Shown here in pieces: positions 23,983-42,994 of a stretch of 50,206 bases of DNA (within the stretch, counting starts at the first letter, position 1; each line of letters opens with the position of its first letter). Under the pieces are notes generated by a model. The model was not told where the DNA came from. It saw only the letters and a list, made by a program, of their open reading frames with translations, and did no database searches. The position numbers were made by a program, and so were the translations under genes. Source of the stretch: Planctomycetota bacterium (lineage in GTDB: Bacteria > Planctomycetota > UBA1135 > GCA-002748355); contig JAJRTL010000011.1 of assembly GCA_024278315.1 (NCBI GenBank), positions 1 to 50,206 of the forward strand, read 5' to 3'.

Positions 23983-25037
23983 TGCTTCGGCTGCGGCAAT
24001 TGACTGCACCCGGAGCCTCGGCGCTCGCTGTACTCGAGGTGTCGGGTGGCGATGCGAGTGCATTCCTCCATTCGCTCGGCGTGTCGACCCTGCCGAGCGA
24101 GGGGCAGCTGCGATTGGCTCGTTTGCGGCTGGGTCGAGGGTTGCGCGAACAGGCCCTGCTGGTGGCGACGCGTCGGGGTTATGAGATCCAGACGCATGGC
24201 AACCCTCTCTTGATCCGAGCGATCCTGGATGGCGCACCGCCGCAAGCCACAGCCCCTGCGGCAGCTTCCGTCGAGACATGGGGGCAGAGCATCCTGCGCG
24301 TGGCGCGCGCGATCCGGGGCCAGTATGCGCTGCGATTGGCACTCTTCCAGCTCGGGCGCGAGGGATCGACCGGCCTGCTCCAGGACCTGACTGAGGGCGG
24401 ATCGATGGATCGTTTCCTGTGCGACTGCGAGACGGCACTCTCACGTGCGGACGCCGTGCGGGCTTGCTTGCGTCCCCATCGCATCGTCCTCCGTGGCCGG
24501 GTCAACTCGGGCAAGTCGACACTCTTCAATGTGCTGGTGGGGCGCGAGCGCGTACGTACCGGGCCGAAACCGGCTCTTACGAGAGATCCTGTCTGGGAGG
24601 AGATCCTCTATCGCGATCGCGTCCTCTGGATCGTCGATACGGCGGGTGAATCGGAGGGGCTGCAGGATCTGGACCTCAGCGCCGAAGGGCTGGGCCGTAG
24701 GGAGGGAGACAACTCGGACCTGGTCCTCTGGCTGCACTCGAACCTGGAAACGAACGAGTCCCTGCCGCGAGAGCAGGAGGCCCTGCTTCTGGAAACCCAT
24801 CATCCGCGACCCGACATCGGGAGGCTGCATCTGGATCTGCTTCGTTTGGACCCCAGCGCTCTCAGGGCCGCCGTCTTGGATCGTGTTCTCGATCGCCTGG
24901 GGTTGGTTGAGCTGCCACCCCTGGCTCCGGCCCCTCTGGACGAAGGCATGGAGCGGGGCCTTCGTTGGCTTCTGGATCAACCGGATCGGCAAAAGGCCGC
25001 CCGTCGCCTGCTCGCGGAGGGCCCCCCGCCTTCCTGA
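23982..25037 (+). CDS. degenerate MnmE-like GTPase
   Basis: The ATG at 23982 overlaps the coaX stop (TGATG) and gives 351 residues. The N-terminus (LTAPGASALAVLEVSG) resembles the tetrahydrofolate-binding domain of MnmE, and the G domain contains G1 GRVNSGKSTLFN (172-183), a G2 Thr in LTRDP and G3 DTAG (219-222). Two things differ from true MnmE. The NKxD guanine motif is not recognisable (LETHHPRPD lies where it should be), and the C-terminal CIGK box needed for tRNA modification is missing. At about 350 residues it is also about 100 shorter. It may be a decayed or repurposed paralog; a normal mnmE may lie elsewhere. Its pairing with coaX suggests a link to that gene, of unknown nature. Confidence 0.75.
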   Translation: MLRLRQLTAPGASALAVLEVSGGDASAFLHSLGVSTLPSEGQLRLARLRLGRGLREQALLVATRRGYEIQTHGNPLLIRAILDGAPPQATAPAAASVETWGQSILRVARAIRGQYALRLALFQLGREGSTGLLQDLTEGGSMDRFLCDCETALSRADAVRACLRPHRIVLRGRVNSGKSTLFNVLVGRERVRTGPKPALTRDPVWEEILYRDRVLWIVDTAGESEGLQDLDLSAEGLGRREGDNSDLVLWLHSNLETNESLPREQEALLLETHHPRPDIGRLHLDLLRLDPSALRAAVLDRVLDRLGLVELPPLAPAPLDEGMERGLRWLLDQPDRQKAARRLLAEGPPPS

Positions 25038-25111
25038 GATGTGGGCCCCGTCTCCAAACGCATACCAACGCGAGGTTGACAGCGGCAGTGCTAGTGAGTC
25101 AACTCCTGGGG

Positions 25112-26446
25112 ATGACCCCGGGGAAGCGCGATCTCATCTCCATCGACGATCTCTCCAACGAGGAGATCCTTGGCCTGTTCCGCTACGCGGAGGAGTTCGA
25201 TGGGGATTTGAAGGCTCATGCAGCCACCTGCCCGGGCACCATTCTCGCCACGCTCTTCTTCGAGCCCTCGACGCGCACCCGGCTCTCCTTCGAGTCGGCC
25301 ATGCTACGTCTCGGCGGGGGCGTGATTTCTGCCACCGAGGGAGGCACGACCTCGGCAGCGAAGGGCGAGAGCCTGGCGGATACCGCGCGCATCGTGGGAG
25401 GACGCTACGCCGACCTGATCGTCCTGCGGCATCCCGATGAGGGGGCGGCCAAGGTCCTGGCAGACTACGCGGAGGTGCCGGTCATCAACGGAGGGGATGG
25501 AGGGCATGAGCATCCCACGCAGACCCTCTGCGACCTCTACACGCTCTGGAAGGAGAAAGGCCATCTGTCGGATCTCGAGGTCGTGCTCTGCGGTGACCTC
25601 AAACACTCGCGCACGATCCACTCCCTGATCTCGGCCCTGGCTCGATTCGATGCCAACATCGTTTGCCTGCCCTATGAGGGGTTCGAGATCCCCTCTCATG
25701 TGCTCGAGCGACTCGAACGACGATGGGGCAGCGAAATCCAGAGGGCCGACGTCGGCGATCTGCCAGGAATCAGCGCAGGCAAGGATGCTGTCTACGTGAC
25801 TCCGAGCCGCCCGCATCAGCAGTCCCTCTTCACGCAGCTCAATGCGCAGGTCGTCCAACGCATCGATGCCATCTACATGACGAGGTCACAGCGGGAACGG
25901 CAGGGTGACGACGACAAGGGGGATGGTTACATGAGCCTCGGGCCGACCCAGCTCAAGGAGAAGCGGTTCAAGGAGACGAGCATCCTTCACCCGCTTCCCC
26001 GGGTCGACGAGATCAGCTACGACATGGATCGGGATCGGAGGGCCATCTACTTCCGTCAGGCGGGCAATGGAGTTCCGATCCGGATGGCCCTCCTGGCCTT
26101 CCTGCTCGGCAAGCTCAAGCTGGGCGGGGCCAAGCCTCCGCGCGCGAGCAAGAAACCCCTCTACCGGTCCAGCCATGGCCTTCGCTGCTCGCATGAGGTC
26201 TGCATCTGCAATCGTGAGGGCCGTCGCTATCTGATCTCCGAATTCGAGGTCATCGAGGAACTACCACCGCTTCTGGCCTGTGCCTACTGCGGCACCGAAG
26301 AGCGCCCACAGTTCGTCGGTCATCGGCAGTCCAGAAAGCTGCACAGGGCCAATGCTGCCGAGGCCACGCGCATCCACGTCGAGAACCGGGTCTACTTCCG
26401 GGATCGTACGGCCGCTGTGGCCGCCGGGTTCGGAGAAGGACTCTGA
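25112..26446 (+). CDS. pyrB: aspartate carbamoyltransferase PyrB fused to a PyrI-type zinc domain
   Basis: The ATG at 25112 gives 444 residues; GTG codons at 25088 and 25094 are alternative starts. Residues 1-335 are the catalytic chain: STRTRLSFE at 53-61 binds carbamoyl phosphate, SAAKGES at 81-87 supplies the active-site Ser and Lys, HPTQTLCDLYT at 134-144 and HPLPRVDEI at 293-301 complete the site. The enzyme joins carbamoyl phosphate and aspartate in pyrimidine synthesis. After a short linker there are four Cys at 359, 364, 390 and 393, spaced C-x4-C-x25-C-x2-C, close to the PyrI zinc domain (C-x4-C-x23-C-x2-C). The PyrI nucleotide-binding domain, normally about 100 residues before the zinc site, is absent. 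A 50-residue basic tail follows. The esterase gene starts 2 bases later. Confidence 0.88.
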   Translation: MTPGKRDLISIDDLSNEEILGLFRYAEEFDGDLKAHAATCPGTILATLFFEPSTRTRLSFESAMLRLGGGVISATEGGTTSAAKGESLADTARIVGGRYADLIVLRHPDEGAAKVLADYAEVPVINGGDGGHEHPTQTLCDLYTLWKEKGHLSDLEVVLCGDLKHSRTIHSLISALARFDANIVCLPYEGFEIPSHVLERLERRWGSEIQRADVGDLPGISAGKDAVYVTPSRPHQQSLFTQLNAQVVQRIDAIYMTRSQRERQGDDDKGDGYMSLGPTQLKEKRFKETSILHPLPRVDEISYDMDRDRRAIYFRQAGNGVPIRMALLAFLLGKLKLGGAKPPRASKKPLYRSSHGLRCSHEVCICNREGRRYLISEFEVIEELPPLLACAYCGTEERPQFVGHRQSRKLHRANAAEATRIHVENRVYFRDRTAAVAAGFGEGL

Positions 26447-26448
26447 CC

Positions 26449-27129
26449 ATGACTCGTGATCTCTTGGAGTGTGTTGAAGTCGAGACTGGGCCTGACCCGC
26501 AGAAGTCGGTCCTCTGGCTCCACGGATTGGGTGCATCGGGGCACGACTTCGAGCCCATCCTTCCCTATCTGGGTCTGCCCAAGGGCAGTGCTGTCCGGTT
26601 CGTCTTCCCGCATGCGCCCGAGATCCCTGTCACGCTCAACATGGGGATGGTCATGCCAGCCTGGTATGACATCGCTGAGCTCAATCTCGAAAGAGGTCAT
26701 GACATGGAGGGGATCCAGAGGTCCCATTCCCAGGTCCTGGATCTCATCGGTCGGGAGAGGGAGCGCGGGGTGGCGAGCGAGGACCTCGTCCTGGCTGGAT
26801 TCTCCCAGGGGGGAGCGATTGCTCTCTACACGGCTCTGCGATTCTGCGAGCCCCTGGCCGGATGCCTGGCTCTCTCCACCTATCTGGTGGGGGAGGAGGG
26901 CCTGGCCGATGCCAGGAGTGAAGCGAATCGGGACCTGCCGATCTTCGAGGCTCACGGACGATTCGACCCGATGGTTCCGATGGAGCGAGGCCTGCATTGT
27001 CGAGATCGACTGGCGGAGCTGGGCTACACTCCTCTCTGGCGCGAATACCCGATGCAACATGAGGTCTGCATGGAGGAGATCCAGGATATCGGGGTTTGGC
27101 TGACGGAGGTTCTGGGTCTCTCTGCCTGA
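26449..27129 (+). CDS. carboxylesterase/phospholipase of the alpha/beta hydrolase 2 family
   Basis: The 226-residue product starts 2 bases after the pyrB stop, with GGAGAAGGA as ribosome-binding site. LWLHGLGASGHDF near the start supplies the oxyanion region, the nucleophile elbow is GFSQGGA (Ser about 122), the acid is Asp in GRFDPMVPM and the catalytic His is in YPMQHEVC. Length and pattern match acyl-protein thioesterase/carboxylesterase II (EstB type), which hydrolyses short acyl esters. No signal peptide is seen, so it acts in the cytoplasm. The physiological substrate cannot be told. Confidence 0.92.
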   Translation: MTRDLLECVEVETGPDPQKSVLWLHGLGASGHDFEPILPYLGLPKGSAVRFVFPHAPEIPVTLNMGMVMPAWYDIAELNLERGHDMEGIQRSHSQVLDLIGRERERGVASEDLVLAGFSQGGAIALYTALRFCEPLAGCLALSTYLVGEEGLADARSEANRDLPIFEAHGRFDPMVPMERGLHCRDRLAELGYTPLWREYPMQHEVCMEEIQDIGVWLTEVLGLSA

Positions 27130-27908: not shown

Positions 27909-30900
27909 ATGATGATGCGACGTAGAGTCAGTTTGGCTGGATTCCGAAGCCGTGGAATCCGAGGTTTGGGCTCCATGGGGCTCGCTCTTGGTCTGGCCCT
28001 GTCCTTCTCCGCCTGTAGTGGCGGTGGTGGCGGTAGTGGTGAGGGGGGAACCGGGGCTGCTTCGGACGGAATCACGCTTATGAGCATCCATGCGGGCCGC
28101 CTCGTGGATGTCTACGGCCTGGTGGGGGACGAGGCCGGGAGCAGCACGGGCGCGATCGAGCTTTACGAGACCGACGTGCTGATTGGCAACGACATCCAGG
28201 ATGAGCGTCAGGTCAACGAGAACAAGGCCGACTCTGAGATCACCTATGACTTCATCGGGGCTGACCCCGCCACCCTTCAGCCAAAACTCCTGATCACGCG
28301 AGTGATCGGCTCCGCGGATTTCAAAACGGCATTCGGCGAGTTGGATGACACGGCCCAGCTGATCTCGGCCGGAGTCTATGGGCAAAACACTGCAGTTCAG
28401 CCCTTCAACGTCGCGGCTCGCAATGCAGGACTCCGCCTGACCTTCAATCGCGACCTGGGACTTCCGGCTGATTTCTTCATCGAGCGCGACGCCACGGGCC
28501 GGCCTGCCGGGATCAAGAATCCCGAGGCCATCGAGCTGGTGGAGATCGTGGGTGATCCGACCGACAATGATCCCATCGGCGACTTCAAGCGCATCACGAC
28601 CCGGATCGCCCATCGCAAGAACCTGATCATCCTGGATCCGGTCCTGCTGGGTGTGGAAGGCAACTGGTTCCAGGTGCCCAACCGCGCTTCGGGAATGCCT
28701 GCCAGCGCGACCCAGAACTTGCCCAACATCCGGGTCAACCTCACGCTGGAAGGGCCTCTCCGCATCAGGGGGCTCACCGCACGAACCGATCCGCGTTTCA
28801 TCCAGACGAACCTGTCCGGGCGCAAAGCGCTCGTGAGGGACTTCCGCTCGGGCAACAGTCGTGACACCACGGCCGGTTTGCAGAACGGCTTCGTGCGCGA
28901 GAAGATCCCGCCGCGCCTGGTCGGAGAGATGCGGATGCGTCTCGAGAGCGTCGAGAAGCTCAGCGAGACCGTTCAGCGATTGACGATCTTCAAGGCTGGT
29001 GTCGTACACGAACTCGATCGTGGTGATGTGCTCAAGCTCTTCCCCAAGGGGTCCAACACCGGTGTGGCTGCGGCCGTGACCGAGATCATCCTGGATCCGG
29101 ACGAGGATCACGGCAAGCCCGGTGTCCAGCGTGTACGTGTGCGTGTGCGCAGTATCGATGGCTGGGAGGCTCACGATCCTTCCAACGATCCTGAATTCCC
29201 CGCGTCGATTCCCGAGCGCATGAAGTGGCTGCTCAAGAACGCTCCGCTGGTGGTGCTCTCCGCCGAGTTCTTCGGCGGTGACCAGAAGACGACCGGGGAT
29301 GACCCCGAGAACTTCATCACCTTCACCCCGGATCCCGTTCCGGATCCAGGGCAGACGATCGTCAAGCCGGGTGAGAATGTCTCTCCCTTCGCCCACATCG
29401 TGTTGCGCTTCACCAAGCCTGTGAACCTGGCAACGGTCAAGCCCTACGATTCGATGATGCTCTCGACGCTGTCCAGTGCTCGTGACACCTTGGATCCCAA
29501 GATCGGCACGCCGCACCTCATCGCCTCGCAGATCTTCGATGAGGATGGCTCATCCACATCCTTGCGCGTCGCACCGCCGATGGGTTTCTTCCTCAGTGAG
29601 GAGATGCGCGGAGCCAGCAAGAAGAAGCAGTTTCCCTACTATCTCCATCTCGTGGGTGGATTCGAGGGCATCCGGGATTTCGCCGGCAACCCCATCGATT
29701 TCCAACGCACAGATGTGAGTTCGGCGCAGGCAAGCTTCAATACCTTCGAGTTCCACCTGGATACGAATGTCGAGAAGGCGGGCAACCGCTTCCCCAACAA
29801 CCGCGTGGTCAACATCGTGCGCCGCTTCACCTCTCTCGATGAGGATGAGAGCGTGAAGGGGCAGATCGACTTCTTCGGTCCCGTCGCCGTGGTCGGTGGC
29901 AGGGCGATCGGCCGCTCCCTGACGCGTGGAAGCTCCTTCGTCGATGACAAGAACCAGCTGCCCTCCCCGCCGGCATTCCCCTTCTCGTTCTGTCAGACTG
30001 GGGACTTCATGGCTCTGACGGCATCCAACCCGGTCAGTGGACCCATCTTGAATCCGCTGAACCCATGGGGTGGTAGGCTCGAGAACATCTGGCGTGAGAT
30101 CGACCTGTCACTCTCGCGCACCAACCCCGTCGACTTCAACCTCGATGTCGAGCAGATGTGGTGGGCTCCGTTCCAGCAGGGATCGGCCGGCACGCGGGAC
30201 ATCATCTATGACATCTTCGACCGCATCAGCCTCTTCCTGGGGCACTGCGAGTATCGTCCCGACAACTGCATCTGGCCTGCTGCCGCCCTTCCGCGCTACA
30301 GGCAGTCGGGTCTCCAGTTCTACTTCGATAGCAACTTCGCTCGCAATCTCAAGGCGGGTGCAACCAACATGACCAACCCCTCTGCGAACGACATCGAGGA
30401 GAGGCCTGCCCCGCACATCGCCTATGAGAACAGGGAAATGATCGTGCAACACAAGGATCTCACGATGGATCCGACCAACAGTGTGCGCTATCTACCTCTG
30501 CCGACCTTCGCCAAGGACAAGGGCTACTTCACCTTCCGTGACGAGGCCGTGGATGTCCTGGGTGGCGGGCGTGGCCAACCTCGCATCCTGAGCCCCTTCG
30601 GACCCGAGAACGAACGCTACTGGGATAGCGCAAATCGTACGAGCGCGGACGACGGCAACGTGGGCTCCATTGCCCTGCCGATCATGGCCGACTTCTGGTC
30701 CTATGTGGACGACCCCAAGCTGCCCAAGGATGACCCCTTCTTCGCGACGGGAGCCAATGGTCTCCAGCTCTCCCTCGCCGTTACGTCCAGTGCGGTGCCC
30801 TACTTCCGCGTCTATTCGGGTGGATCGCTGGTGTTGAGTAAGAACGCCAAGTACGTGCGTCCGGGTAGCCGTGATTTCAAGGTGGCGAGTGGTGGATGGA

Positions 30901-31475
30901 ACCCGCTCTCGGGAGCTCGCACTGCGGCTGGTGACCCGACCCAATACTGGATGAGATTCGACTGGTTGCGTCGGAAGTCCTACATGACCTACGGCTTCAT
31001 CAATCTGCAGGATCCACATAGCGATGCCACCAACAACTACGGTGACCCTCGACTGGGCTCCAGCAACGCCTATGCGATGAGCGCCAACCAGATCTGCAAC
31101 TTCCAGGAGTTCTTCGAGCCGCCTCTGTCGACGCTTCCAACCGGGACCGTCATCGAGGCCGAGTATCGCGGGGCCGACAGGGCGTCCTCTGGGTTCAAGG
31201 CCCTGGATCCTCGTCTGCCAGGAAATGCACACATCCGTCGTTCTTCCGGTTCCCAGTGGGCCTACCGCTACACGAACAAGCTCACCAAATACACGACCAA
31301 TCCCAACCAGCTCTTCCAGGACTCCTATCTGGGCAAGTTCCAGTTGGACGCCTCGAAGGTGCGGATCATGAACTGGCGCATTCGTTTCCAGAACAATCCT
31401 GAGGCGGTCAATCCCGCCCCGCCGACCCTGGACTCCTACGGTCTGAGTTACCGCATCGAGACCAGGATCAAGTAG
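27909..31475 (+). CDS. giant lipoprotein A1 (family A) with Ig-like segment
   Basis: The 1188-residue product begins with a lipoprotein signal peptide (LALSFSAC, lipidated Cys at residue 36) followed by a Gly/Ser linker. A region near residue 500 (SPFAHIVLRFTKPVNLATVK) resembles SbsA-type Ig-like domains. No other known domain is visible. It is a full-length paralog of the gene at 35151. Both share GRLVD-(V/I)-Y near the start, RDFRSG at about residues 310 here, VRRF-x-S-x-DED, NPVDFNLDVEQMWWAPF (NPQDFELDVEQLYWAPF there), DIFDRISLFLGHCEYRPD, and a C-terminal NWRIRF-type ending. It is Asp/Asn/Pro-rich and poor in Cys, as in outer-membrane or surface proteins. The function is unknown. The start has ATG three times in a row, with AAAAGG just upstream. 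Confidence 0.85.
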   Translation: MMMRRRVSLAGFRSRGIRGLGSMGLALGLALSFSACSGGGGGSGEGGTGAASDGITLMSIHAGRLVDVYGLVGDEAGSSTGAIELYETDVLIGNDIQDERQVNENKADSEITYDFIGADPATLQPKLLITRVIGSADFKTAFGELDDTAQLISAGVYGQNTAVQPFNVAARNAGLRLTFNRDLGLPADFFIERDATGRPAGIKNPEAIELVEIVGDPTDNDPIGDFKRITTRIAHRKNLIILDPVLLGVEGNWFQVPNRASGMPASATQNLPNIRVNLTLEGPLRIRGLTARTDPRFIQTNLSGRKALVRDFRSGNSRDTTAGLQNGFVREKIPPRLVGEMRMRLESVEKLSETVQRLTIFKAGVVHELDRGDVLKLFPKGSNTGVAAAVTEIILDPDEDHGKPGVQRVRVRVRSIDGWEAHDPSNDPEFPASIPERMKWLLKNAPLVVLSAEFFGGDQKTTGDDPENFITFTPDPVPDPGQTIVKPGENVSPFAHIVLRFTKPVNLATVKPYDSMMLSTLSSARDTLDPKIGTPHLIASQIFDEDGSSTSLRVAPPMGFFLSEEMRGASKKKQFPYYLHLVGGFEGIRDFAGNPIDFQRTDVSSAQASFNTFEFHLDTNVEKAGNRFPNNRVVNIVRRFTSLDEDESVKGQIDFFGPVAVVGGRAIGRSLTRGSSFVDDKNQLPSPPAFPFSFCQTGDFMALTASNPVSGPILNPLNPWGGRLENIWREIDLSLSRTNPVDFNLDVEQMWWAPFQQGSAGTRDIIYDIFDRISLFLGHCEYRPDNCIWPAAALPRYRQSGLQFYFDSNFARNLKAGATNMTNPSANDIEERPAPHIAYENREMIVQHKDLTMDPTNSVRYLPLPTFAKDKGYFTFRDEAVDVLGGGRGQPRILSPFGPENERYWDSANRTSADDGNVGSIALPIMADFWSYVDDPKLPKDDPFFATGANGLQLSLAVTSSAVPYFRVYSGGSLVLSKNAKYVRPGSRDFKVASGGWNPLSGARTAAGDPTQYWMRFDWLRRKSYMTYGFINLQDPHSDATNNYGDPRLGSSNAYAMSANQICNFQEFFEPPLSTLPTGTVIEAEYRGADRASSGFKALDPRLPGNAHIRRSSGSQWAYRYTNKLTKYTTNPNQLFQDSYLGKFQLDASKVRIMNWRIRFQNNPEAVNPAPPTLDSYGLSYRIETRIK

Positions 31476-31697
31476 ACGTCCGAGAACGAACAACCGAAAC
31501 AAACTAGATCAAGACAGGCACTGACACTCCTGGCCCCTTGGCATCGGCAATCGGTGAAGGGGAGCCTTCTCTGGCTCGGCACCATCGGGGCTGGGCCATG
31601 AGGACTGGGGTAGACTTGCTTCGTCATCCTCCACTTTCCACTGCTTTTCGATGGGCTCCCCCCCGGGAACCCGAACTCTCCTTCCAAGAGAACCGTC
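31476..31697 (+). other. intergenic region between lipoproteins A1 and B1
   Basis: 222 bases without a gene. TGGGGTAGAC occurs at 31612-31621 and again at 38946-38955, upstream of B2. TAGACT at 31616-31621 could be a -10 box. No strong terminator is seen after A1. Confidence 0.35.
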
Positions 31698-34600
31698 ATG
31701 ATGACACCCTTCAGACAGATCCGGACAAGCGTTGCCAGGACCAGCATGGTCGGCGCTTTGGCCTTGGCGCTGGTTGCTTGCAGCAAAGGCAGCGAAACGC
31801 CGGCAGACTCGAGGACCGGTGGCCCCTTCGAGGTGCTGACGACAGCACCGGCGAACAATGGCCAGCTCTTCCTCAACCAGTCCGTGCGTTGGACCATGTC
31901 CAATCCCTTGAACATCGACACGGCGACCTTCAACGCCATTGCGTTCACGGTGAGGGAGGCGGGAGGCGATCCGGTTTCAGAGCAGGTGACGGGAAACTTC
32001 CGCCTGGGTTTGGATGTCGACGGGGTCGAAGATCCCTATGTCCTGGAGTTCGTGCCGAAGCTCCCCACGAACAGCACGTTCACGAACGGTGGCTTCAAGC
32101 CTGCCCGTATCTATACGGTCACCATCGTCCAGGAGAGCATGGGCAACAATCCCGTGCTGCGCGACCTGGCGGGCAACGCCCTGTCGCCGTCCTCCGCGGG
32201 CCAGGTTTTGAGCTTCAAGACGGCATCGGGATCCTCGCCTGATGAGCTTTTCCTGGACACGAGGGTGGGTGGACCTCGTGTCATGAAGTTCGAGGTCGGA
32301 CCACAGACCGGTAACAGGGTTTCCCTGAACCGTCTGGGCACGGCGCCCGTCGAGGTGCGACTGAGCTTCAATCAACCCCTGAATCCCTCGAGCAGCAATG
32401 TCCCAGTCAACCAGGATACCAACCCTGTGAATGCGCTCCTGCGCCAGAAGGGACGAATCTACCTGGAGTATGACGATGTGATTCTCGGAGACAGGCAGTG
32501 GATCCGAGCTCAGGTCGAAATGCCCGTGAATGACAATCGTGGAGCAGAGGTGATCATCCGTCCCGATGGCATCCTCCCCAACAACGCAACAATCCGAGTC
32601 ATCGTCCTTGCCGACCTGCAGGACATTTCGGGCGAGTCCAACGTCAAGGATGCTTCCTACAACCCGATCGCCGGCACATTCGCGACCGAGACCTCGTTTC
32701 ATTCGCAGTTCGATGCGGTGATGATGAGTTTCAAGGACGACACCTTGATCGACAAGGATGCCGCCTTCAACGACCCGATCGCCGAAGTCAAGAACGGGCT
32801 CTTGAGCGCTTCGTTCGATTTCGAAGGCCTGCCCACCAACTTCAACTATGCGCCGACCTCGCGCGAAATCATTCTGAACACCAACTTCACGCAGGTGCAG
32901 CCCACCAATGGCCCGCCGATCGCGGTCTCGGGCGGTGTGTTCTCCTTCAACAACATCGAGATCAAGCAGGATGTCAAAGTCCAGGGCACGGGCACGAACC
33001 CGCTCGTCTTCCTGGCCAATGGCACGGTCCGTATCGATGGGCTCGTCTCGGTCAACGGTGGTGATGGCGCTCAGGTGAACACCCTGAACTCCGCCAACTT
33101 CCCGACCGGTGGTGGTGTAGGCGTCTGCATGGGCGGCAATGGTGGCAAGGCTAGTCAGAACGTCACCAACTCCACCCTTCAGGGAGAGACTGGCTGGGGA
33201 CCTGGCCAGGTGCCTGGAGGCGGCGGCAAGGGTGGCAAGATCGCCTGCGGCAGCATCTCCAACTATGCCGGTGGCGGTGGTGGTGGATCCATGGCCCAGC
33301 AGGGCGATGACGATTTCTCCAGCACAGCCGTCCAGAAGAAAGGCACGGGTGGAAATGGTGGCACCGCCAACGCGACGGGTGGCAAGCCCGGACCGACGAA
33401 CTTCTTGGACCAGACCAAGACCAACGATTTCTGGGGTCGCCTCGTGACAAAGAGCGGCGATGTCATCATCGGCGAACTCCTGTCTCCCACCGGCGGCGGT
33501 GGTGGCGGTGGTGGCGGTGACGTGACCTCGTCCAGCAAGTGTCAGGCGGGACAGCCCGGCTACATCAACGACCGCAAGGGCGGCGGTGGTGGAGGCGGCG
33601 CTGGCGTCGTGATCATCAAGGCTCTTGGACCCATCATCATCAGCTCGACCGGTCGCGTCTCCGCAGATGGCGGGCGTGGTGGTGGAGGTGAGTGGGCTGG
33701 TTCCTCCCGTTTCGGCGGCGGTGGAGGCGCAGGTGCCGGTGGTATGGTCGTCCTCATGTCGGCGACCCGCATCGATCTGCATACGCACCAGGGCACCTAT
33801 GCCAACAACGACTACAACTTCTCCGTGACGGCCGATGGCAACATCAGCCGCGTGGCCTCCTACGGCAGCGTGCGCCTGCACAAGTACCTACAGAGGAACG
33901 ACAAGAACAACACCGGCGGTTACGGTGGCATGGGCCTGGTCCAGCTGCAGACGCCTCCGGGTGACGATGCTGACGGCACCGGCACCAAGCTCGATGACAA
34001 CCTCCGCGTCATCCAGGGCGCCAATGTCCTGACTGGCACGGCGAAGACTTCCTACCTGATTCGCGGCGATATCCGACCGAATCCATGGTTCCTGGCTTCG
34101 CCGTATGGACGTTTCTCCTCCGCGGAGCTGCACTGGCGGTCGACGGCTGCTTCCGAACGTCGCGAGACCGTGACTCCTCAGAGTTCTGGCGCAAGGGTCA
34201 TCGACTCCTTGCTCGGCAAGAGCGGTCCTGAGTGGTATTTCCAGCAGCTCGTCAACCGGAGCAAGCAGGGCAACAGCGGCTACCTCGACACCGATATCAA
34301 CAGTGGCGCCCTGGTCTTCCCGCCAGTGAGACTGGATGGTGGTGTGACCCGCGCTGTCATCAAGGACGCACAGAGCAACGGGGCGGACTACCACGGTACG
34401 AATGCCCACGTCCTGACTCTGGACAAGAACTACCTTCCCGATCCGCTGACCGGTGGATGGAACTATTCCAACTACCGGGCGCGTCTCATGGACAAGTCCA
34501 ACAGCGAGGTGGCTGAGTTCCGGATCCTGTCCACGTCCAAGGATCAGATCCTGCTCGAAGCCGGTCTGACCGCGCTTCCGCCCAACCTCGGCAGCGTGGA

Positions 34601-35000
34601 GATCCTCGCCAAGTTCCTCCGGGTCGAGACCGGAGGAGCGGAGGGCCTGGGTGACAGCTACGAGGTCAAGGTCGGCCAGGTGAAGCAACGCTACCCCAAG
34701 ACCAACCTCCAGATCGGTTTCGCGTTCCACAAGGATCCCTCGGAGCCCAAAATCACGGGCAACAAGGATACGAACCGCTTCCCACAGGAGCTGGGCACCT
34801 TCCTCTACGACCTGGATCTCGACGATCCCGTGACGACCGAGCAGCTCCGTAAGCTGCACTACCGTTTCTCGAAGGCGAGGATCCGCTTCAACCTCAACTA
34901 CAACCCGGTTCAACCGTCCACCACTCCTGGTCCCAATCCGGTCCAGCCTGGTGTCGAACGACCCGGTATCCGATTCCTGAATCTGCCGTATCGTTTTTGA
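31698..35000 (+). CDS. giant lipoprotein B1 (family B), glycine-rich with Ig-like domain
   Basis: The 1100-residue product starts with a lipoprotein signal (LALALVACSK, Cys 28). Residues about 40-175 form an Ig-like domain (PFEVLTTAPANNGQLFLNQS) and about 210-310 a second (PVEVRLSFNQPLNPSSS). The region near 415-460 reads FSFNNIEIKQDVKVQG then NGTVRIDGLVSVNGG, the entrance of a glycine-rich beta-solenoid-like stretch (about 470-690) with runs of nine and seven Gly and paired strands such as GVVIIKALGPIIISSTGRVS. Glycine-rich secreted proteins with this GGGGGGAGG-VVIIKA pattern occur in myxobacteria and planctomycetes. The C-terminal 400 residues are a mixed beta domain. It sits between A1 and A2, read the same way. 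The likely place is the cell surface; the function is unknown. Confidence 0.82.
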   Translation: MMTPFRQIRTSVARTSMVGALALALVACSKGSETPADSRTGGPFEVLTTAPANNGQLFLNQSVRWTMSNPLNIDTATFNAIAFTVREAGGDPVSEQVTGNFRLGLDVDGVEDPYVLEFVPKLPTNSTFTNGGFKPARIYTVTIVQESMGNNPVLRDLAGNALSPSSAGQVLSFKTASGSSPDELFLDTRVGGPRVMKFEVGPQTGNRVSLNRLGTAPVEVRLSFNQPLNPSSSNVPVNQDTNPVNALLRQKGRIYLEYDDVILGDRQWIRAQVEMPVNDNRGAEVIIRPDGILPNNATIRVIVLADLQDISGESNVKDASYNPIAGTFATETSFHSQFDAVMMSFKDDTLIDKDAAFNDPIAEVKNGLLSASFDFEGLPTNFNYAPTSREIILNTNFTQVQPTNGPPIAVSGGVFSFNNIEIKQDVKVQGTGTNPLVFLANGTVRIDGLVSVNGGDGAQVNTLNSANFPTGGGVGVCMGGNGGKASQNVTNSTLQGETGWGPGQVPGGGGKGGKIACGSISNYAGGGGGGSMAQQGDDDFSSTAVQKKGTGGNGGTANATGGKPGPTNFLDQTKTNDFWGRLVTKSGDVIIGELLSPTGGGGGGGGGDVTSSSKCQAGQPGYINDRKGGGGGGGAGVVIIKALGPIIISSTGRVSADGGRGGGGEWAGSSRFGGGGGAGAGGMVVLMSATRIDLHTHQGTYANNDYNFSVTADGNISRVASYGSVRLHKYLQRNDKNNTGGYGGMGLVQLQTPPGDDADGTGTKLDDNLRVIQGANVLTGTAKTSYLIRGDIRPNPWFLASPYGRFSSAELHWRSTAASERRETVTPQSSGARVIDSLLGKSGPEWYFQQLVNRSKQGNSGYLDTDINSGALVFPPVRLDGGVTRAVIKDAQSNGADYHGTNAHVLTLDKNYLPDPLTGGWNYSNYRARLMDKSNSEVAEFRILSTSKDQILLEAGLTALPPNLGSVEILAKFLRVETGGAEGLGDSYEVKVGQVKQRYPKTNLQIGFAFHKDPSEPKITGNKDTNRFPQELGTFLYDLDLDDPVTTEQLRKLHYRFSKARIRFNLNYNPVQPSTTPGPNPVQPGVERPGIRFLNLPYRF

Positions 35001-35017
35001 TCCAGGAAGCCTGACTC

Positions 35018-35044
35018 GGAAATCTCTCCTCAAGGGAGGTTTCC
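35018..35044 (+). terminator. weak hairpin after lipoprotein B1
   Basis: GGAAA pairs with TTTCC around an inner CTCC/GGAG stem, 18 bases after the B1 stop. It has no T tract. Confidence 0.3.
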
Positions 35045-35150
35045 TGGGTCAGGTGCCCGGCACCCTCCTGGGCATCTGATCTCTACCTCTGACATGTTAG
35101 ACACCGCTCGAAGAAGACTCCCCGCAAGTCGAAGCCACAAGGACTCGAGA

Positions 35151-38100
35151 ATGCCAAGTTTCGATAGTAGAAGACCCGGTCAGCCATGGCTCAGATCCCT
35201 GAGTCGCAAGCTGCTCTTCGGAGGCCTGATTGGAGGCTTGATGTTGGCAGGCACTGCCTGCGACGGCCGCACGGAAAAGGACCCGACCGGCAACACTTCC
35301 ACGGGTAGTGGTGGTGCCAGGCTCATGGGCCTGCAGTACGGCCGCCTGGTCGACATCTACGCCTACCGGCGTGTGGAGGTTGGCATCAAGGACCGGTTGG
35401 ATCCACGCAATCGCCATGCCGTTCTCGTGCAGCGTGATGTCGTCGTCGGGCCTCGAGTCCAGAATGGTGATCCCTTTGCCACGGACACCGCTTCCTATCG
35501 ATACCTGCCATACGACCGGCAAGCGGGTCGCCGTGGTCTTCTGATCCTCTGGGATGACCAGAACAAGGACGAGAAGGCTGCGTACGACCGCGCTCTGCTG
35601 AACGCCACCAACAGTCTTGCCTCGGTCAATGACCATGCGGCCTTCCAACCCGGCAATCAGTTGGCTCCACCCATGGTTCCGGCGGATGCCGCCATCGTGC
35701 TGACCTTCGATAGCCCACTGGGACTGGATTCGGCCTTCTTCCGTCAGGTGCCCACGGCCCTGCAGGTGCTGCAGTTGGTGGGGAATCCCGATGTCGTCTC
35801 CCATGGTGCGGCCTACAGGCTTTTGGACACGAGAATCGTCTCCAAGGAGAACGGAAGGATCCTGATCATCGATCCGGAGATCAGCGGTTTCGAAGCCGTG
35901 GGGCGCGTACCCAACCCGCGTGGTTTGCCGCAATCGCAGAACCAGACCGCAGCCAATATCCGCATTGCGTTCCCGACCTCGGGCATCGTGAGCAATCAAC
36001 TCAAGGTGGCGACCGATGCCATCCAGGAACTGAACTCGGTGGACGTCAACGGCGATGATGCCGTGATCCGAGACTTCCGCTCCGGCAGCATCCTCGACGA
36101 TTTCGTCGGCAATCTCCCGGACGAGGACATGCCCGAGATCGCGACACGGAAGACCATGGGCATCATGTCCGTGGACGTTGCCAAGCGTATGGTCGTCGTC
36201 AACAAGAGGTTTGCGAATCTGATCCTCAGGCCACGCCTGCCTTTCGTCGACGGCCCTATCTCCACCCTCGATGGCAGACCTCTGGGCCCACGTGCCGTTC
36301 CGCAGGGGACCGCCTTCCAGAACGGGGACACGATCAGTCAGGACATTGTCTCGCCGGTGACCGGTGAAGTCGTCCGCATCCAGGGTGAGGTGCTCCAGAA
36401 TCTGGACATTCCCATTCTTGAGGGCCATCCCAACCTGGGTAAGGGAGGCGCTGGTCCGACAGCGATCCTGATCCTCTCGACCGTCTCTGGTACAGACTCC
36501 CTGGGCAATCCTGTGGTCATGGAGGGTTCGAGACTTGAGCCCCTGGGCAAGGCCTGCGAGGCCAAGGTCCACTACCACGATCAGGTGATCCTGCCTGGCA
36601 ATGAGGATGTCGGCGATGCGGGCCGCAGGGATGAGTTCCTGCGTTTCACGCCTGCACCTCCCAAGCTGGATGCCAACCGCAACCCGCTTCCGCCGAACAA
36701 GAACATCGCGCCGAATGTCCAGGTTTCCGTGGAGTTCAGCAAGCCGATGTATCTGCCTTCGGTCAAGTCAGATGAGAATGTCATTCTGGCCAACCGTACC
36801 GGCGATGTCTGGAAGTATCTGGCCAACCCCAAGGTGGCTACCGTGGCCACCGAGCCGACCATCGCGACAGATTTGAGGGGAGATGGCATGGCCATCAACC
36901 TCAACCCTCCGCTGGGCTTGCTTCACAAGAAGGGGACAGCTGAGGACTACTACTTCCATGCGGCCGTAGCCGAGCAACCCGCCACGGACCGTTCCGGCAA
37001 GAAACTCCTCGTGTCGGATACCGACAAGAGGCTCGATGCTGTGACCTTCCGGTTTAGCCTCGACAAGGCAGCGGAAGACAATCTGGTGGCTTCGATCGTC
37101 CGTCGTTTCGTCTCTGCAGACGAGGATGGCACGAGCGAACAGGACATCATCCTCGACTACTTCGGTCAGTATCAGGTCCTGCCGGCTCTGGGTGCCATGT
37201 TTGGCTCCCCAACCCTGCGTTTCACGAGAGTGGCCGATAGCTCGACCCTGCCCAGCATCCTTCGCGGAAACATGGGCGAGTGCTCCGTGAGCATGCCTCC
37301 CGAGACTCTCTATCATGGGCCCATCATGTTGGTGACCCCACCGAACCCGCCGGAGGGTTGGGTGATCGAGCCTCTGGTTCCCCAGGGCTCGCGTGTGCAG
37401 TGGACCTACCGTGAGGACGACTTCCAGCTCTCACACCGCAACCCGCAGGACTTCGAGCTGGACGTGGAGCAGCTGTACTGGGCTCCCTTCATCGCCCGTA
37501 GTCCCTCGCTGTTCACCTTCGATGTCTTCGATCGCTTCTCAATGACTCTTGGCACGGCCGAGAAACGTCCGGATACGCGAGTTCGTGTCACCAATCCTCC
37601 ACCTCCCGGGGTTCCCCGCTGTAGCCGGGATACGGCTTGGAGTGCCCGTAACGGCCTCTCGACCAACTTCGCGGGCAACTACCTGGACAACAGCAGCCGT
37701 GCGGTCGTCGTTTCCAGGAAGATCTACATGATCAACCCGCAGAAGCAGTTCTCTGCCAAGAGCGGTGTGGTCATGATGGGGTGGCCGGACTTCGAGAAGA
37801 CCTATACCTGGCGTGATCGGCGGGATGTCGGCTGGGACAGCGCGCGCGGTGTCGCAGTTGGGCTCGGTGGATCACAGGCACCCAACAACACGAGTACCGG
37901 TGATCGGACTCTCGACATCACGAGTCCTTGGCTCCCCGAGCTGGACGACAAGGGTGCGCCTATCGCCAACAACACCGCGCTCAACTTCAGCTCCGGTTAC
38001 TCCAACCTCCAGGCAGACGACTTCAAGGGCAAGACGACACAGGATCACCATCCGATCGCGCTGCCGCTGCTTGTGGACGTCAAGGTCTGGCCGGATGACA

Positions 38101-38912
38101 AGGCCAATGGCCTGGCCAAGGGAACGAACCGCTTCCAGCTCGCAGGCATCAATGCGCCTCAGCCGAGCCCCGAGGTTGGTTTCTACAATGCGGGCATCCC
38201 CTGGATGCGGGTGCAGAGCTCCGGTGGTCTCGACCTCAAGAACAACGAGACCTTCGTGAATCCCGAGACTGTGGGGACCGCGATCGGTGGTTGGTTGCAG
38301 AACGGATTCTTCGGTCGGTTCAACGCACCTCCGGGTGACGGCATGACCTACTGGGGCCAGGCCGACTTCGTTCGCAAGAAGTCCGTCATCACTGCGGGCT
38401 ACGTGGACATGCTGCTGCCCAACAAGAACGAGTTCACTCCTCCCCCGGGTTGGAGCGGCTCCCAGTTCGGCAAGAACGGTTACCCGGATCTCACGAGCCT
38501 CGGGGGAGCCGGTATGCGCGCAGGCGAGATCACCATCCTGACGACTCCGAGCTTCCAGGAATTGCCTGCCGGCACTTCGATCAAGATCGACTATCGAGGC
38601 AGCGAATCCTTCGACAAGTCCGACACGGTCTACAAGCCGATCGCCAAGGAGACTGCGGTGAACCGTGGCAACCTCCTGAGCCCGGACTTCGCCGAAGAGC
38701 AGTTCCGCTACGTTGGTTCCAAGCGCATCAAGGCCCTCGGGATGACCAACTACGTGTCCAAGGCGTCTCTTCTGGTCGACCCCAAGACCCGCGTGGCTCC
38801 GCGCTTCATCAACTGGCGCTTCACCTTCTTCAACAACGCCCAGGTCAACCCGGCAACCGTGCCCTTCCTGGAGTTCTTTGCAGTGAAGTATCGTCTGCGT
38901 TCGCCTAAGTAG
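35151..38912 (+). CDS. giant lipoprotein A2 (family A), paralog of A1
   Basis: The ATG at 35151 is preferred because AAGGA lies 7 bases before it; an in-frame ATG at 35094 would add 19 residues before the signal. The 1253-residue product has a signal ending in LAGTAC (Cys 37, position -3 is Gly, slightly atypical). The following residue is Asp, which in Escherichia coli keeps lipoproteins in the inner membrane; whether that rule holds here is unknown. The whole length aligns with A1: GRLVDIYAY, IRDFRSGS, NIAPNVQVSVEFSKPMYLPS (Ig-like), SIVRRFVSADEDGTSE, NPQDFELDVEQLYWAPF, FDVFDRFSMTLGTAEKRPD, PRFINWRFTFFNNAQVNP. The gene is followed by a very strong terminator. No function can be assigned. 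Confidence 0.85.
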   Translation: MPSFDSRRPGQPWLRSLSRKLLFGGLIGGLMLAGTACDGRTEKDPTGNTSTGSGGARLMGLQYGRLVDIYAYRRVEVGIKDRLDPRNRHAVLVQRDVVVGPRVQNGDPFATDTASYRYLPYDRQAGRRGLLILWDDQNKDEKAAYDRALLNATNSLASVNDHAAFQPGNQLAPPMVPADAAIVLTFDSPLGLDSAFFRQVPTALQVLQLVGNPDVVSHGAAYRLLDTRIVSKENGRILIIDPEISGFEAVGRVPNPRGLPQSQNQTAANIRIAFPTSGIVSNQLKVATDAIQELNSVDVNGDDAVIRDFRSGSILDDFVGNLPDEDMPEIATRKTMGIMSVDVAKRMVVVNKRFANLILRPRLPFVDGPISTLDGRPLGPRAVPQGTAFQNGDTISQDIVSPVTGEVVRIQGEVLQNLDIPILEGHPNLGKGGAGPTAILILSTVSGTDSLGNPVVMEGSRLEPLGKACEAKVHYHDQVILPGNEDVGDAGRRDEFLRFTPAPPKLDANRNPLPPNKNIAPNVQVSVEFSKPMYLPSVKSDENVILANRTGDVWKYLANPKVATVATEPTIATDLRGDGMAINLNPPLGLLHKKGTAEDYYFHAAVAEQPATDRSGKKLLVSDTDKRLDAVTFRFSLDKAAEDNLVASIVRRFVSADEDGTSEQDIILDYFGQYQVLPALGAMFGSPTLRFTRVADSSTLPSILRGNMGECSVSMPPETLYHGPIMLVTPPNPPEGWVIEPLVPQGSRVQWTYREDDFQLSHRNPQDFELDVEQLYWAPFIARSPSLFTFDVFDRFSMTLGTAEKRPDTRVRVTNPPPPGVPRCSRDTAWSARNGLSTNFAGNYLDNSSRAVVVSRKIYMINPQKQFSAKSGVVMMGWPDFEKTYTWRDRRDVGWDSARGVAVGLGGSQAPNNTSTGDRTLDITSPWLPELDDKGAPIANNTALNFSSGYSNLQADDFKGKTTQDHHPIALPLLVDVKVWPDDKANGLAKGTNRFQLAGINAPQPSPEVGFYNAGIPWMRVQSSGGLDLKNNETFVNPETVGTAIGGWLQNGFFGRFNAPPGDGMTYWGQADFVRKKSVITAGYVDMLLPNKNEFTPPPGWSGSQFGKNGYPDLTSLGGAGMRAGEITILTTPSFQELPAGTSIKIDYRGSESFDKSDTVYKPIAKETAVNRGNLLSPDFAEEQFRYVGSKRIKALGMTNYVSKASLLVDPKTRVAPRFINWRFTFFNNAQVNPATVPFLEFFAVKYRLRSPK

Positions 38913-38953
38913 GCCTGGCTGACGACCTACCGGGCCAACGACCCTGGGGTAGA

Positions 38954-38989
38954 CAAGGCCCCCCTCCCTCGCATGGGAGGGGGGCCTTG
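38954..38989 (+). terminator. strong terminator after lipoprotein A2
   Basis: A perfect 15-bp stem (CAAGGCCCCCCTCCC with GGGAGGGGGGCCTTG) closes a 6-base loop, followed by TGCCTTTCC. It separates A2 from the interrupted B2 gene. Confidence 0.85.
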
Positions 38990-39057
38990 TGCCTTTCCGG
39001 AGGGGCACTCCAGAGTGCCGCAGCAATCTGGCCCACCTTGGGATAGGCTGGGCATCG

Positions 39058-40839
39058 ATGATCTGGACCCGCCTTCTTCTCTACCTGCCGCTGCTCGCCC
39101 TCGCTTGCAGTCGGGAGTCGCCTGACCGGGAGCTCGAGGTGCGCCGTGTGGATCTGGCGGCGGACCCCCTCTTCGTCAACCAGGCGATCCGGGTGTACTT
39201 CGACAAGGTCCTGGATCGCGCCTCGGTGACCCCTGATACCGTGCGGGTCCTCGATGAGGCCGGCAACGCCGTGCCTGGGCGCCTCAGGACAGGCGATTGG
39301 TAGCTGGCATTCGAACCCATTCCTCCTCGCAAGCCGGATCTCTCGGATGGCTCCTTTGTACCGGGGCGCAGGTACCGGCTGGAATTGGCCGCCTTCCCCC
39401 TGGCCAATGCGCTGCGGGGGCGTGCTGGCGAAGTCCTGAAGAAGCCCGTGTCCCGGGGATTCCGCATCCACACCAGTGCCGACCTGCCGGCTGGAGCTGC
39501 GACGGAGTTCCTTCCCAGCACGGGCGGAGAGTCGATCTTCCACCCCCTCCTCCCTGTGCAAGTGCTGGAGGGGGGGCAGGTTCTCGAGGTGGCCTTCAGT
39601 CGACCCGTCTACCCTCCGTCCGTTCGGCTCGAGGCCTTTCTCCTGACTCGTCAGCTCGGGATGACGCCGATAGCTTTGCGAAGGGTCGAGATCCTGGGTC
39701 GTCCCGGCCGCTTCGGCCCCGGGTCGGTTCTCCGTCTGTATCCCGCTCGAGCCCTCACCCCGGGTCTCTACATCCTGTCTTTCCAGCCGGGATCCGAGGG
39801 GATCCAGGATTACGGTGGCGAGGGACTGCTGGTCCCCTCGACCTTTCCGGGCCAGCGTTGGAACCAGGGAGGGCCCCTGACCTTCGCAGTTGAGGAGAAG
39901 GGGCTCTCCTCCCCCTTCCAGGAGGATCTCCGTCAGCGTGCACCTGTCTTCGACATGGATCCCGAGGGCGTTGGCCTGCCTGTAGATATGGAGGGTGGTC
40001 TCCGACTCACGTCCACGGGGCTGCGTTTCCCGGATCTGGAGTTTTCGAAGTTCCAGAGCCATGGTCCTCTCTCCGTGGAAGAGAGGATGGTCATCCTGGA
40101 ACCGGAAAGACCTCTACCCGGCGAGCAGGCCAGGCTCGGGAGCCAGTGGGATTTCGACTCCCTCGTGGTCCGTAGGGGCTGCAAGCTCATCGTGATGCTG
40201 GATCGGGATCTGGAGATCCGGATTGCAGGGCGGTTCTCGGTAGAGGGAGAACTGCTCTTCCGGTTGGGGGGCAAGGCTCGGGCTCTTGGCGGAAAGCGTT
40301 CGGGCTTGTTCCGCGGGGATCCACGTCCGACCTGGGCCGAGATCCACCCTCGGGTTCGCATCCTGGTCGGTGGACTGTGCCGACTCGAGGGTGCCATGGG
40401 GCTCTATCAAGAGAGTGAGCCAGGACCAGGGGAGGCTCGTGCGAGGCTCGTTCCCGGATACCTCTGGGGCCGAGGACCTTTTTTTGGCAACTGGGGAGCC
40501 AGCAGGCTCCAGAGTTGGATCCGTACGCCGCAGGATGCGAGCGAGCCCCGGGCGCTGCGGCCCACCGCCTTGCCAGGGCGATGGGGGTGGTTGGGTCCCT
40601 GGCATGCCCTTGAGCCATCCCACTCGTTCAAGGGTGAGGTGACCTTGCTCGGAGCGACACAGGATCTGACCCTCGAACTCCTGGTGCAGGGGCGGCATGA
40701 GAACGGGAGACTCAGCTCCTGGGTTCTGCCCGATGTCCTTCCGCAACTCGGGCGCTTGAGCGCACTTCGCGCGGCTCTCTACGTGGATGGCTCCGACGCG
40801 GACACCGGCCTCCTGCTTCAGGGGATGGGGATCCGCTGA
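39058..40839 (+). pseudogene. lipoprotein B2 (family B), interrupted by an in-frame TAG
   Basis: The reading frame starts at an ATG at 39058 with a clear lipoprotein signal (LLALACSRE, Cys 17). It runs through an Ig-like segment (QAIRVYFDKVLDRASVTPDT) to codon 81, reading GDW, where TAG at 39301-39303 stops it. The same frame continues with no other stop to 40839: LAFEPIPPRKPDLSDGSF, then FVPGRRYRLELAAFPLANAL, which is the expected continuation of the Ig-like domain. The downstream part (about 512 codons) resembles B1: WDFDSLVVRRGCKLIVMLDR with LEIRIAGRFSVEGELLF matches the FSFNNIEI...NGTVRIDGLVSVNGG region there. It lacks the long Gly-rich part. A single base change would restore a 593-residue protein. 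Nonsense mutation, read-through or sequencing error are the options; I favour a recent pseudogene. Confidence 0.75.
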
Positions 40840-41091: not shown

Positions 41092-42066
41092 TTGGATATT
41101 CTGCTCGCAATTGTGAGTGCGATTCTGGGACTCATGGTGGGTTCCTTCCTCAACGTGGTGATCTATCGTCTCCCACGCGAGACCTTCCTCTCCGGGGGCA
41201 AGCGCTCTCACTGCCCCTCCTGCCAGGCGCAGATCGCGTGGTTCGACAACCTTCCCGTGATCTCCTGGTTGTTGTTGCGGGGCAAGGGGCGTTGCTGCGG
41301 CACAAGGATCTCGATCGAGTATCCGCTCGTCGAACTCGTCACCGGCTCGGCATTCCTCGCGATCTGGCTCTATCAAGGCCAGGGTGGTTTCCGCGGTAGC
41401 ACAGCCGTCTGGTCACCCTTGGTGGGTTGGGATGCGGCGGCCGTCCTCTTGCTCGTCGCGAGCTTCGCACTCACGTCCGCGCTCCTGGCGGCCTCGGTCA
41501 TCGACTTCCATCACCGCATTCTGCCCAACGCCATCAACTATCCTGGGCTCGCGCTGGCCCTGCTGTTGAGCCTGTTGCTCCCCTCCATCCATGCGGACGA
41601 CTGGCTCTATGGTCGTTTCCATGAGGCTGCCCCCAGTGCACGTTCGTTTCTCGTCGCACTGGCTGGCATGGCCGTGGGGGCTGGTCTTCTGCAGCTCGTG
41701 GCCTGGATCGGTAAGAAGCTCTACGGCCGGGACGCCATGGGCATGGGTGACGTGAAACTCATGGCCTTCCTCGGTGCTCTGCTGGGTCCAGGCGGTGTGC
41801 TCCTGGCCTTGGCCTTGGCCGTCCTTCTGGGCGCTTTTGGTGGGATCGCAGCCGCGATCTTCACGCGGGATCCCATGATTCCCTTCGGCCCCTTCCTGGC
41901 TGTGGCCTCCCTGGCCTCCTGGTTTGCAGAAGGCTCGATTCGCTACCTGCTGGGAGAAGCTTGGCCCCTCTGGCTGCGCACCAGCGATTATGGGATGCCA
42001 ACACTGGTTGGCATCTGTGTACTTTGTTTGTTCGCCATCCTCTTTCTCCGGAGGCTTCGGCGATGA
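41092..42066 (+). CDS. pilD: prepilin leader peptidase/N-methyltransferase PilD
   Basis: The start is a TTG at 41092 with GGGGAG 4-5 bases upstream. The 324-residue membrane protein has an N-terminal GSFLNVVIYRLPR box and the cytoplasmic Cys domain, then at least six hydrophobic helices. The two catalytic Asp residues of this aspartic protease are D138 (ASVIDFHHRILPN) and D220 (GMGDVKLMAFLGALLG). Cysteines are at 41, 44, 68 and 69 (CPSC and CC), so the second pair is adjacent instead of C-x2-C. It cleaves and N-methylates type IV prepilins and type II pseudopilins. The last codon overlaps an ATG (ATGA at 42063), which may link it to the next gene. Confidence 0.94.
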   Translation: MDILLAIVSAILGLMVGSFLNVVIYRLPRETFLSGGKRSHCPSCQAQIAWFDNLPVISWLLLRGKGRCCGTRISIEYPLVELVTGSAFLAIWLYQGQGGFRGSTAVWSPLVGWDAAAVLLLVASFALTSALLAASVIDFHHRILPNAINYPGLALALLLSLLLPSIHADDWLYGRFHEAAPSARSFLVALAGMAVGAGLLQLVAWIGKKLYGRDAMGMGDVKLMAFLGALLGPGGVLLALALAVLLGAFGGIAAAIFTRDPMIPFGPFLAVASLASWFAEGSIRYLLGEAWPLWLRTSDYGMPTLVGICVLCLFAILFLRRLRR

Positions 42067-42128
42067 AAACGCTTTTCTCTCACACTTGCCTCGATTGGGC
42101 TCGCGATGGAGCCCGGGAGATGATGACC

Positions 42129-42803
42129 ATGATGACGATGCTACGATCCAGAAAGAGCCTTCTGTTGCTCTTCGCTCTCTCCCTCGCTTCCTTGACCGGA
42201 TGCAAGGCCAAGCTTCAGGCCCAGCTGCGCGATCGCGATGAGACGATCCGGAGCCTGGACGGTCAGCTGGCCAACATGCGCCTGGAGAACGAGCGCTTGC
42301 AGGCCGAGCGCGATCGAGCCCTCGCCGATGCCAAGGCGCGCCAGAGCCAGCCCCAGGAAGCCTCGGCTCCCAAGCAAGGGAACAAGAAGGATCTGGATTT
42401 CCTTGCCAACGAGATTGGCAGTGACGTCAAGGTCCGGAATGTGGGGGGGCGGATCTCGATCGGGATCCCGAGCAGCGTGAGTTTTGCTCCTGGGAGCACT
42501 CAGCTCAGCCCCGAAGGTCAGAGGGTTCTGGGGCGAGTCGCGCGGGTCCTCCAGAGGGACTTCGCCGGTCGGCGCATCTACGTCGAGGGGCACACCGACC
42601 GGACGCCGCTCAAGAAGACCAAGTCCAAATACAAGACCAATCGGCGGCTCTCAGCCATGCGAGCCGATGCCGTGGCCACGTACCTGGGGCAGCATCAGGT
42701 CCCTGAGTCCAAGATCGTGATCGTGGGCTACGGGCCCTACAAGCCTGTGTCGCAGAGCAACCTGGCCGCCAATCGCCGGGTGGAGGTCGTGATCGGCGAC
42801 TAG
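42129..42803 (+). CDS. OmpA-family peptidoglycan-binding lipoprotein
   Basis: Of several ATGs the one at 42129 is chosen, because GGGAG lies 9 bases before it and the lipoprotein signal (LLLLFALSLASLTGC, Cys 25) follows at a normal distance; ATGs at 42063 and 42120 are in the same frame. The 224-residue product has a coiled coil after the Cys (about 30-70, with RDRDETIRSLDGQLANMRLE), a Gln/Ala/Pro linker and an OmpA C-terminal domain (about 100-224) with FAPGSTQLSPEGQRVL, IYVEGHTDRTPLKK and NRRLSAMRADAVATYL. Such proteins anchor the outer membrane to peptidoglycan. It is not a MotB because it lacks a membrane helix. The neighbour is pilD, which may indicate a role near the pilus channel (inference). 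Confidence 0.88.
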   Translation: MMTMLRSRKSLLLLFALSLASLTGCKAKLQAQLRDRDETIRSLDGQLANMRLENERLQAERDRALADAKARQSQPQEASAPKQGNKKDLDFLANEIGSDVKVRNVGGRISIGIPSSVSFAPGSTQLSPEGQRVLGRVARVLQRDFAGRRIYVEGHTDRTPLKKTKSKYKTNRRLSAMRADAVATYLGQHQVPESKIVIVGYGPYKPVSQSNLAANRRVEVVIGD

Positions 42804-42914
42804 GCAGCCCGAACGATTCATGACCTCGATGCGTCTGGGAGGCTTCTCCGGGCCTGCCGAGCGCGGGGCCGGAGATTGCGTCCCAATCCCCTGGTCTACC
42901 ACGCCCTATGGCGA

Positions 42915-42943
42915 TTCCATGGCGGTGGCCTTGTGCCTATAGT
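42915..42943 (+). promoter_or_regulatory. candidate promoter of the EF-G-like gene
   Basis: TTCCAT at 42915-42920 and TATAGT at 42938-42943 (5 of 6 to the -10 consensus) are 17 bases apart. The expected start is about 45 bases before the ATG at 42995. Confidence 0.4.
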
Positions 42944-42994
42944 CTGGGGCCCGAACTCCCCCCAGAAAACCGCTGCAACAAGAGGAATTGGCGT

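Follow-up and report, generated by a model that had tools for sequence, protein, structure and literature searches.

Do the very large lipoprotein genes that alternate inside a Planctomycetota type IVa pilus locus encode parts of the pilus, or a surface structure independent of it? Planctomycetota surfaces and attachment structures are poorly understood, and the question is directly testable in any cultured member of the order. The window (the whole stretch of DNA analysed, 50,206 nucleotides) is contig C64 of G000, a Planctomycetota MAG of 5.16 Mb in 518 contigs and 85% complete. It is a type IVa pilus locus with two lipoprotein families, A and B, and the following features:

9966, pilM
11013, pilN-like gene
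11677–13074, pilO, with a GspB/GspC-like C-terminus (T2SSB, E 6e-7)
14038, secretin gene pilQ
20767, pilT (pilT1)
24965–26446, forward strand, pyrB, by synteny the constant neighbour upstream of the A array
27909–31475, forward strand, A1, lipoprotein of 1188 aa (Cys36), multi-domain and beta-rich
31698–35000, forward strand, B1, lipoprotein of 1100 aa (Cys28) with Ig-like domains, short strands and a glycine-rich lobe
35151–38912, forward strand, A2, paralog of A1, 1253 aa
39058–40839, forward strand, B2, a short B1 paralog that lacks the glycine-rich lobe and has an interrupted reading frame
41092–42066, forward strand, pilD prepilin peptidase, by synteny the constant neighbour downstream of B2
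41961–42803, forward strand, OmpA-type peptidoglycan-binding lipoprotein, by synteny a conserved gene after pilD
45507, second pilT (pilT2), after an EF-G paralog
46620, pilB
48436, pilC

RNase E/G and rplU/obgE lie between pilQ and pilT, and the order after the ORF at 22013 is coaX, GTPase, pyrB, esterase, A1, B1, A2, B2, pilD. The product of pilD is a genuine prepilin peptidase by its domains (PF06750, E 1e-32; PF01478, E 5e-15), and a search of the window genome for PilN with PF05137 gave 0 matches. The PilO-like ORF mixes type II and type IV pilus traits through its GspB/GspC-like C-terminal domain. ORF 22013–23209 encodes a membrane-anchored, GspC-like protein whose C-terminus matches PDZ weakly (E 0.11); its equivalent was not recognised at the loci of family f5, and neither were the pil genes other than pilD there. 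The esterase is a carboxylesterase (26449–27129) in the gap between pyrB and A1, and none was seen at the equivalent place in the loci of relatives. The EF-G paralog (42908–45004) lies between the OmpA-type lipoprotein gene and pilT2, a position stable across families. A second PilT cluster in the same genome (G000:C476:33088–37439) consists of a GspE/PilB-type gene, PilT and another GspE/PilB-type gene, and similar clusters persist in f5.

A1 and A2 were aligned by BLASTP at 188 bits (E 3e-52, 28% identity over 809 columns), and all motifs that the first-pass annotation had named as shared were present, which upholds its claim of A1/A2 homology. The lipobox cysteine (Cys36 in A1) was unchanged in 18 of 18 aligned A proteins. 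The sequence AAGGA stands immediately 5′ of the A2 start at 35151, and this ORF is open from an ATG at 35094 as well. The AF2 model of A1 was confident and beta-rich (pLDDT 82.5, pTM 0.80) and had no global PDB match by Foldseek, the top match (probability 0.57, TM 0.09) not being trusted as a fold assignment. Searches of Pfam and NCBIfam with A1 and A2 gave no match, nor did PDB sequence profiles, and by this profile evidence A is without any curated family in Pfam or NCBIfam. Big_5 (PF13205) was detected in 5 of 18 A homologs at E values up to 0.1 and not in the A1 of the window, where a reading of the alignment would place an Ig-like (Big_5-type) domain at about residues 486–620.

For B1, Cys28 was unchanged in 28 of 28 homologs, and the match to PF13205 reached 30.3 bits, against a gathering score of 23.6. 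Big_5 recurred in all 28 B1 homologs (E up to 0.01) and in 18 of 21 B2 homologs, and this generic domain is, as far as profile matches go, the sole curated coverage of the B family. In the AF2 model, B1 is laid out as an Ig-like N-terminus, a run of short strands that is probably a solenoid, the glycine-rich lobe (residues 456–700, 31% glycine, largely at pLDDT below 50) and a beta-rich C-terminal part. The lipobox of B2 ends in LLALAC. Single-sequence BLAST aligned B1 with B2 at E 0.007, and profile–profile comparison at a probability of 99.6% (E 2.8e-24, 377 columns), the homology covering the N-terminal ~455 residues of B1, up to the glycine-rich region. The proposed kinship of B1 and B2 is thus borne out, and profile alignment found both pairs, A1–A2 and B1–B2, to be homologous. 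Matches of B1 to an L,D-transpeptidase and antibody Ig folds in Foldseek (TMq 0.08), and to phage tail/Ig proteins in a viral library, were not accepted as homology, and whole-protein homology between A and B was rejected, as only a 38-column C-terminal strand pair aligned (probability 54%, E 1e-4).

All four genes lie on one strand and encode a signal peptide and a lipobox-like cysteine, as first annotated; B2 had been counted among four lipoproteins and is not intact, its frame being broken by a stop codon:

39301–39303, forward strand, in-frame TAG at B2 codon 82, the homologous frame staying open from 39304 to 40839

From the lipobox start the frame runs for 81 residues only, and the homologous frame is open on both sides of the TAG. 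The gene is open in 19 relatives, at about 510–680 aa and mostly 600–650. The TAG could mean that B2 is a pseudogene, or it could be a wrong base in the assembly, and B2 of this MAG is probably non-functional unless the latter holds. Two hairpins were found in the intergenic gaps of the array:

34998–35051, forward strand, hairpin in the B1/A2 gap (−37.1 kcal/mol; z −4.0 for the folded stretch), a possible transcript end
38953–38990, forward strand, G+C-rich, terminator-like hairpin of 16 bp in the A2/B2 gap (z −4.4 for the folded stretch)

Since such very stable hairpins (z about −4) follow B1 and A2, the four genes are perhaps not one transcript, and the array genes may be transcribed separately.

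With A1 as a single-sequence query, matches were found in 118 of 121 relatives. Profile searches, which were kept to the phylum, found A and B1 each in 22 of 22 order members of the phylum sample, making the two, with their fixed locus, a near-universal marker of the order; among 294 phylum genomes A was found in 45 and B1 in 73, many distant matches being single-domain. Confirmed matches in the genome-contig scan came from Planctomycetota or uncultured-bacterium MAGs. The arrangement pyrB-A1-B1-A2-B2-pilD was present at no fewer than 20 named MAG loci, and variants in named MAGs were A-B1-B1-A-B2, A-A-B1-A and A-pyrB-A-B1-A-A-B2. Families f8 and f2 have pyrB-A-B1-B2-pilD, and f5 and f7 have pyrB-A-A-B1-B2; one f8 genome carries four tandem A genes, and across other families the number of A copies ranges from 1 to 4. 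The block also occurs in three lineages outside the order, namely f24 (pyrB-A-B1-B2-pilD, with pilT), f47 (GTPase-A-B1-B2-pilD-fusA) and f11 (pyrB-A-B-like genes), the deepest orthology being weak, with A scores of 20–47 bits in f11 and f47 (long-branch divergence outside the order).

The expected neighbour linkage of A and B was seen downstream of pyrB, where B1 directly follows A in 27 of 29 cases with room downstream; one of the two exceptions (L066) is an overlapping-ORF artefact, and in the other a second A comes first. The first-pass annotation had named A genes routinely found without B as evidence against a two-component system, and such genes were found in part: secondary loci, in f8 and in other families, repeatedly carry an A with no B beside it (L224, L225, L229–L232, L085, L087, L094, L105), and the window genome has further B1 paralogs (57–59% identity) on the short contigs C479 and C254 without an A neighbour. 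These solo A and solo B loci argue against an obligate two-component A-B system; the A-B linkage is preferential, not obligatory.

The alternating order had been taken to suggest duplication of an A-B pair, and the trees do not support this. The A tree was built by a quick method with SH-aLRT as the only support measure and rooted at the midpoint. In it, the A1 and the A2 sequences each formed a clade, the two being sisters confined to f1, f3 and f6 (support 99–100) and separate from the A genes of other families, and A had duplicated independently in f5, in f7 and in G024. In the B tree, one change parts B1 from B2, with the families sampled on each side, so that this split is order-wide. Because the B1/B2 split is order-wide and the A1/A2 split is confined to three families, with other families having A-B1-B2 or A-A-B1-B2, a duplication of the pair is not supported; by tree topology, B1 and B2 parted first, and A1 and A2 arose later by tandem duplication. 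The ancestral block in this order, older than the order itself, would have been A-B1-B2, followed by several independent tandem duplications of A; in this lineage the second A would have ended up in the B1/B2 gap, which yields the A-B-A-B order.

The position of the block would fit accessories of the type IVa pilus, either a PilY1-like tip or adhesin complex or a lipoprotein collar round the PilQ secretin. The genes lie between pilT1 and pilD/pilT2/pilB/pilC in f1, f6, f8 and f2, and f24, outside the order, has the same position with pilM and pilT. PilY1 (PF05567) gave 0 matches among 25 genomes of the order and 149 of the phylum, a zero of little weight, as the control genomes gave none either. 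A, B and their homologs likewise lacked a PF05567 match, and neither A nor B has a pilin-like domain. Although PilY1/PilC tip adhesins are also large, encoded near type IVa pilus genes and thought to reach the outside, A and B differ from them in being lipidated and in being retained without pilus motor or PilM genes. The housekeeping genes pyrB, coaX, fusA and rne share the block, which makes position weak evidence for a pilus role.

The lineages that lack the pilus genes and keep the block, a natural knock-out, bear on this most directly. Four f5 loci (G015, G022, G025, G028) and the f47 loci (G184, G249, G202) retain A-(A)-B1-B2-pilD, in the order rne/coaX/GTPase/(pyrB)-A-(A)-B1-B2-pilD-(OmpA)-fusA, and no pilM/N/O/Q, pilT1, pilT2, pilB or pilC was recognised at these loci. 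PF11104 was useless as a test of PilM co-occurrence (291 of 294 genomes match), and the TIGR01175 cut-off and the PilB ortholog level were used. PilM (TIGR01175) exceeded the cut-off in 0 of 13 genomes (11 f5 and 2 f47), against 11 of 11 comparison genomes. The best PilB matches in f5 and f47 scored 400–470 bits at unrelated places, a paralog level, whereas syntenic orthologs scored 557–806 bits; the PilB of an f7 genome (G013) also reached just 424 bits. As f5 and f47 keep A-B1-B2 without PilM or an ortholog-level PilB, A and B do not appear to be obligate parts of the type IVa pilus; on gene content, an obligate role in this pilus is rejected, and we regard an accessory role as unlikely.

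Both lineages still encode PilT/GspE-type machines of other clusters, so another PilD-dependent machine could take part. A and B might then be surface lipoproteins exported by a type II-like or PilD-dependent machine, in the manner of pullulanase-type lipoproteins. Pullulanase PulA and SslE are large type II-secreted surface lipoproteins tied to such a machine; A and B have neither an enzymatic domain nor sequence similarity to them, the linkage being solely through the pilD neighbourhood. In favour of such export, pilD adjoins B2 even where the remaining pil genes are gone, the GspE/PilT-type machines remain in f5 and f47 genomes, and the PilO ORF has its GspB/GspC-like C-terminus. Any type IV filament needs PilD, however, so its retention would be expected regardless, and no dedicated secretion genes adjoin the block in f5 or f47. 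Export by this route seems doubtful to us, and for the export complex that the first-pass annotation had floated no evidence was found.

We favour the reading that A and B are large envelope lipoproteins with a structural or adhesive role at the surface, independent of the pilus, and give it a probability of roughly 0.5. The lipobox cysteine in all four proteins, the Ig-like domains and the beta-rich models fit surface or envelope structural proteins, and the solo A paralogs elsewhere suggest that A can act away from the pilus locus. A and B would be exported by Sec and lipidated at the invariant cysteine, then most likely transported to the outer face of the outer membrane; the Ig-like domains would form a rod, from which the glycine-rich lobe of B1, probably with a solenoid, would project as a contact surface. 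A-B1-B2 would stand in the pilus locus through old synteny and not through dependence on the pilus. From the AF2 strand pattern we infer the surface exposure and the solenoid, and we further infer the role in adhesion or structure.

The lipoproteins could instead face the periplasm. As scaffolds there, A and B would join the outer membrane to peptidoglycan together with the OmpA-type lipoprotein, a conserved peptidoglycan-binding neighbour whose gene is kept at the f5 loci. That gene was, against this, unrecognised at the f47 loci, and the size of A and B, their build from Ig-like domains and solenoid, and the glycine-rich loops in B1 would better suit an exposed surface, which leaves a periplasmic scaffold quite improbable.

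The preferred reading, surface lipoproteins independent of the pilus, was also compared with known surface systems. Big_5 is common to B1, B2 and some A proteins and to the extracytoplasmic SbsA/Big_5 Ig-like surface and S-layer proteins (PF13205), and Foldseek found likeness to Ig-domain stacks and the S-layer protein SbsC (4uic) at domain level only. Unlike SbsA and SbsC, A and B are lipidated and form a fixed gene block, and neither an S-layer anchoring domain nor a global fold match was found. In SusC/SusD, members of two families stand side by side in recurring pairs, with lipidation of one or both; A and B are likewise two adjacent, repeated lipoprotein families, but they have no TonB-dependent transporter or SusD domain and can occur apart.

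Large Ig-like surface lipoproteins are known as a kind; literature searches returned no description of the A and B proteins, and neither the order-wide syntenic A-B1-B2 block nor its independence of the pilus genes around it was found in the literature searched. A, B1 and B2 may form a Planctomycetota surface assembly of their own, such as an appendage or adhesion complex, older than the order, outlasting the type IVa pilus and possibly matured or displayed through PilD, a suggestion we make tentatively. At f5 loci (L213:10655–13831, L215, L217, L218), an extra B2-like gene of ~1060–1120 aa follows fusA, at the site held elsewhere by pilT2/pilB/pilC.
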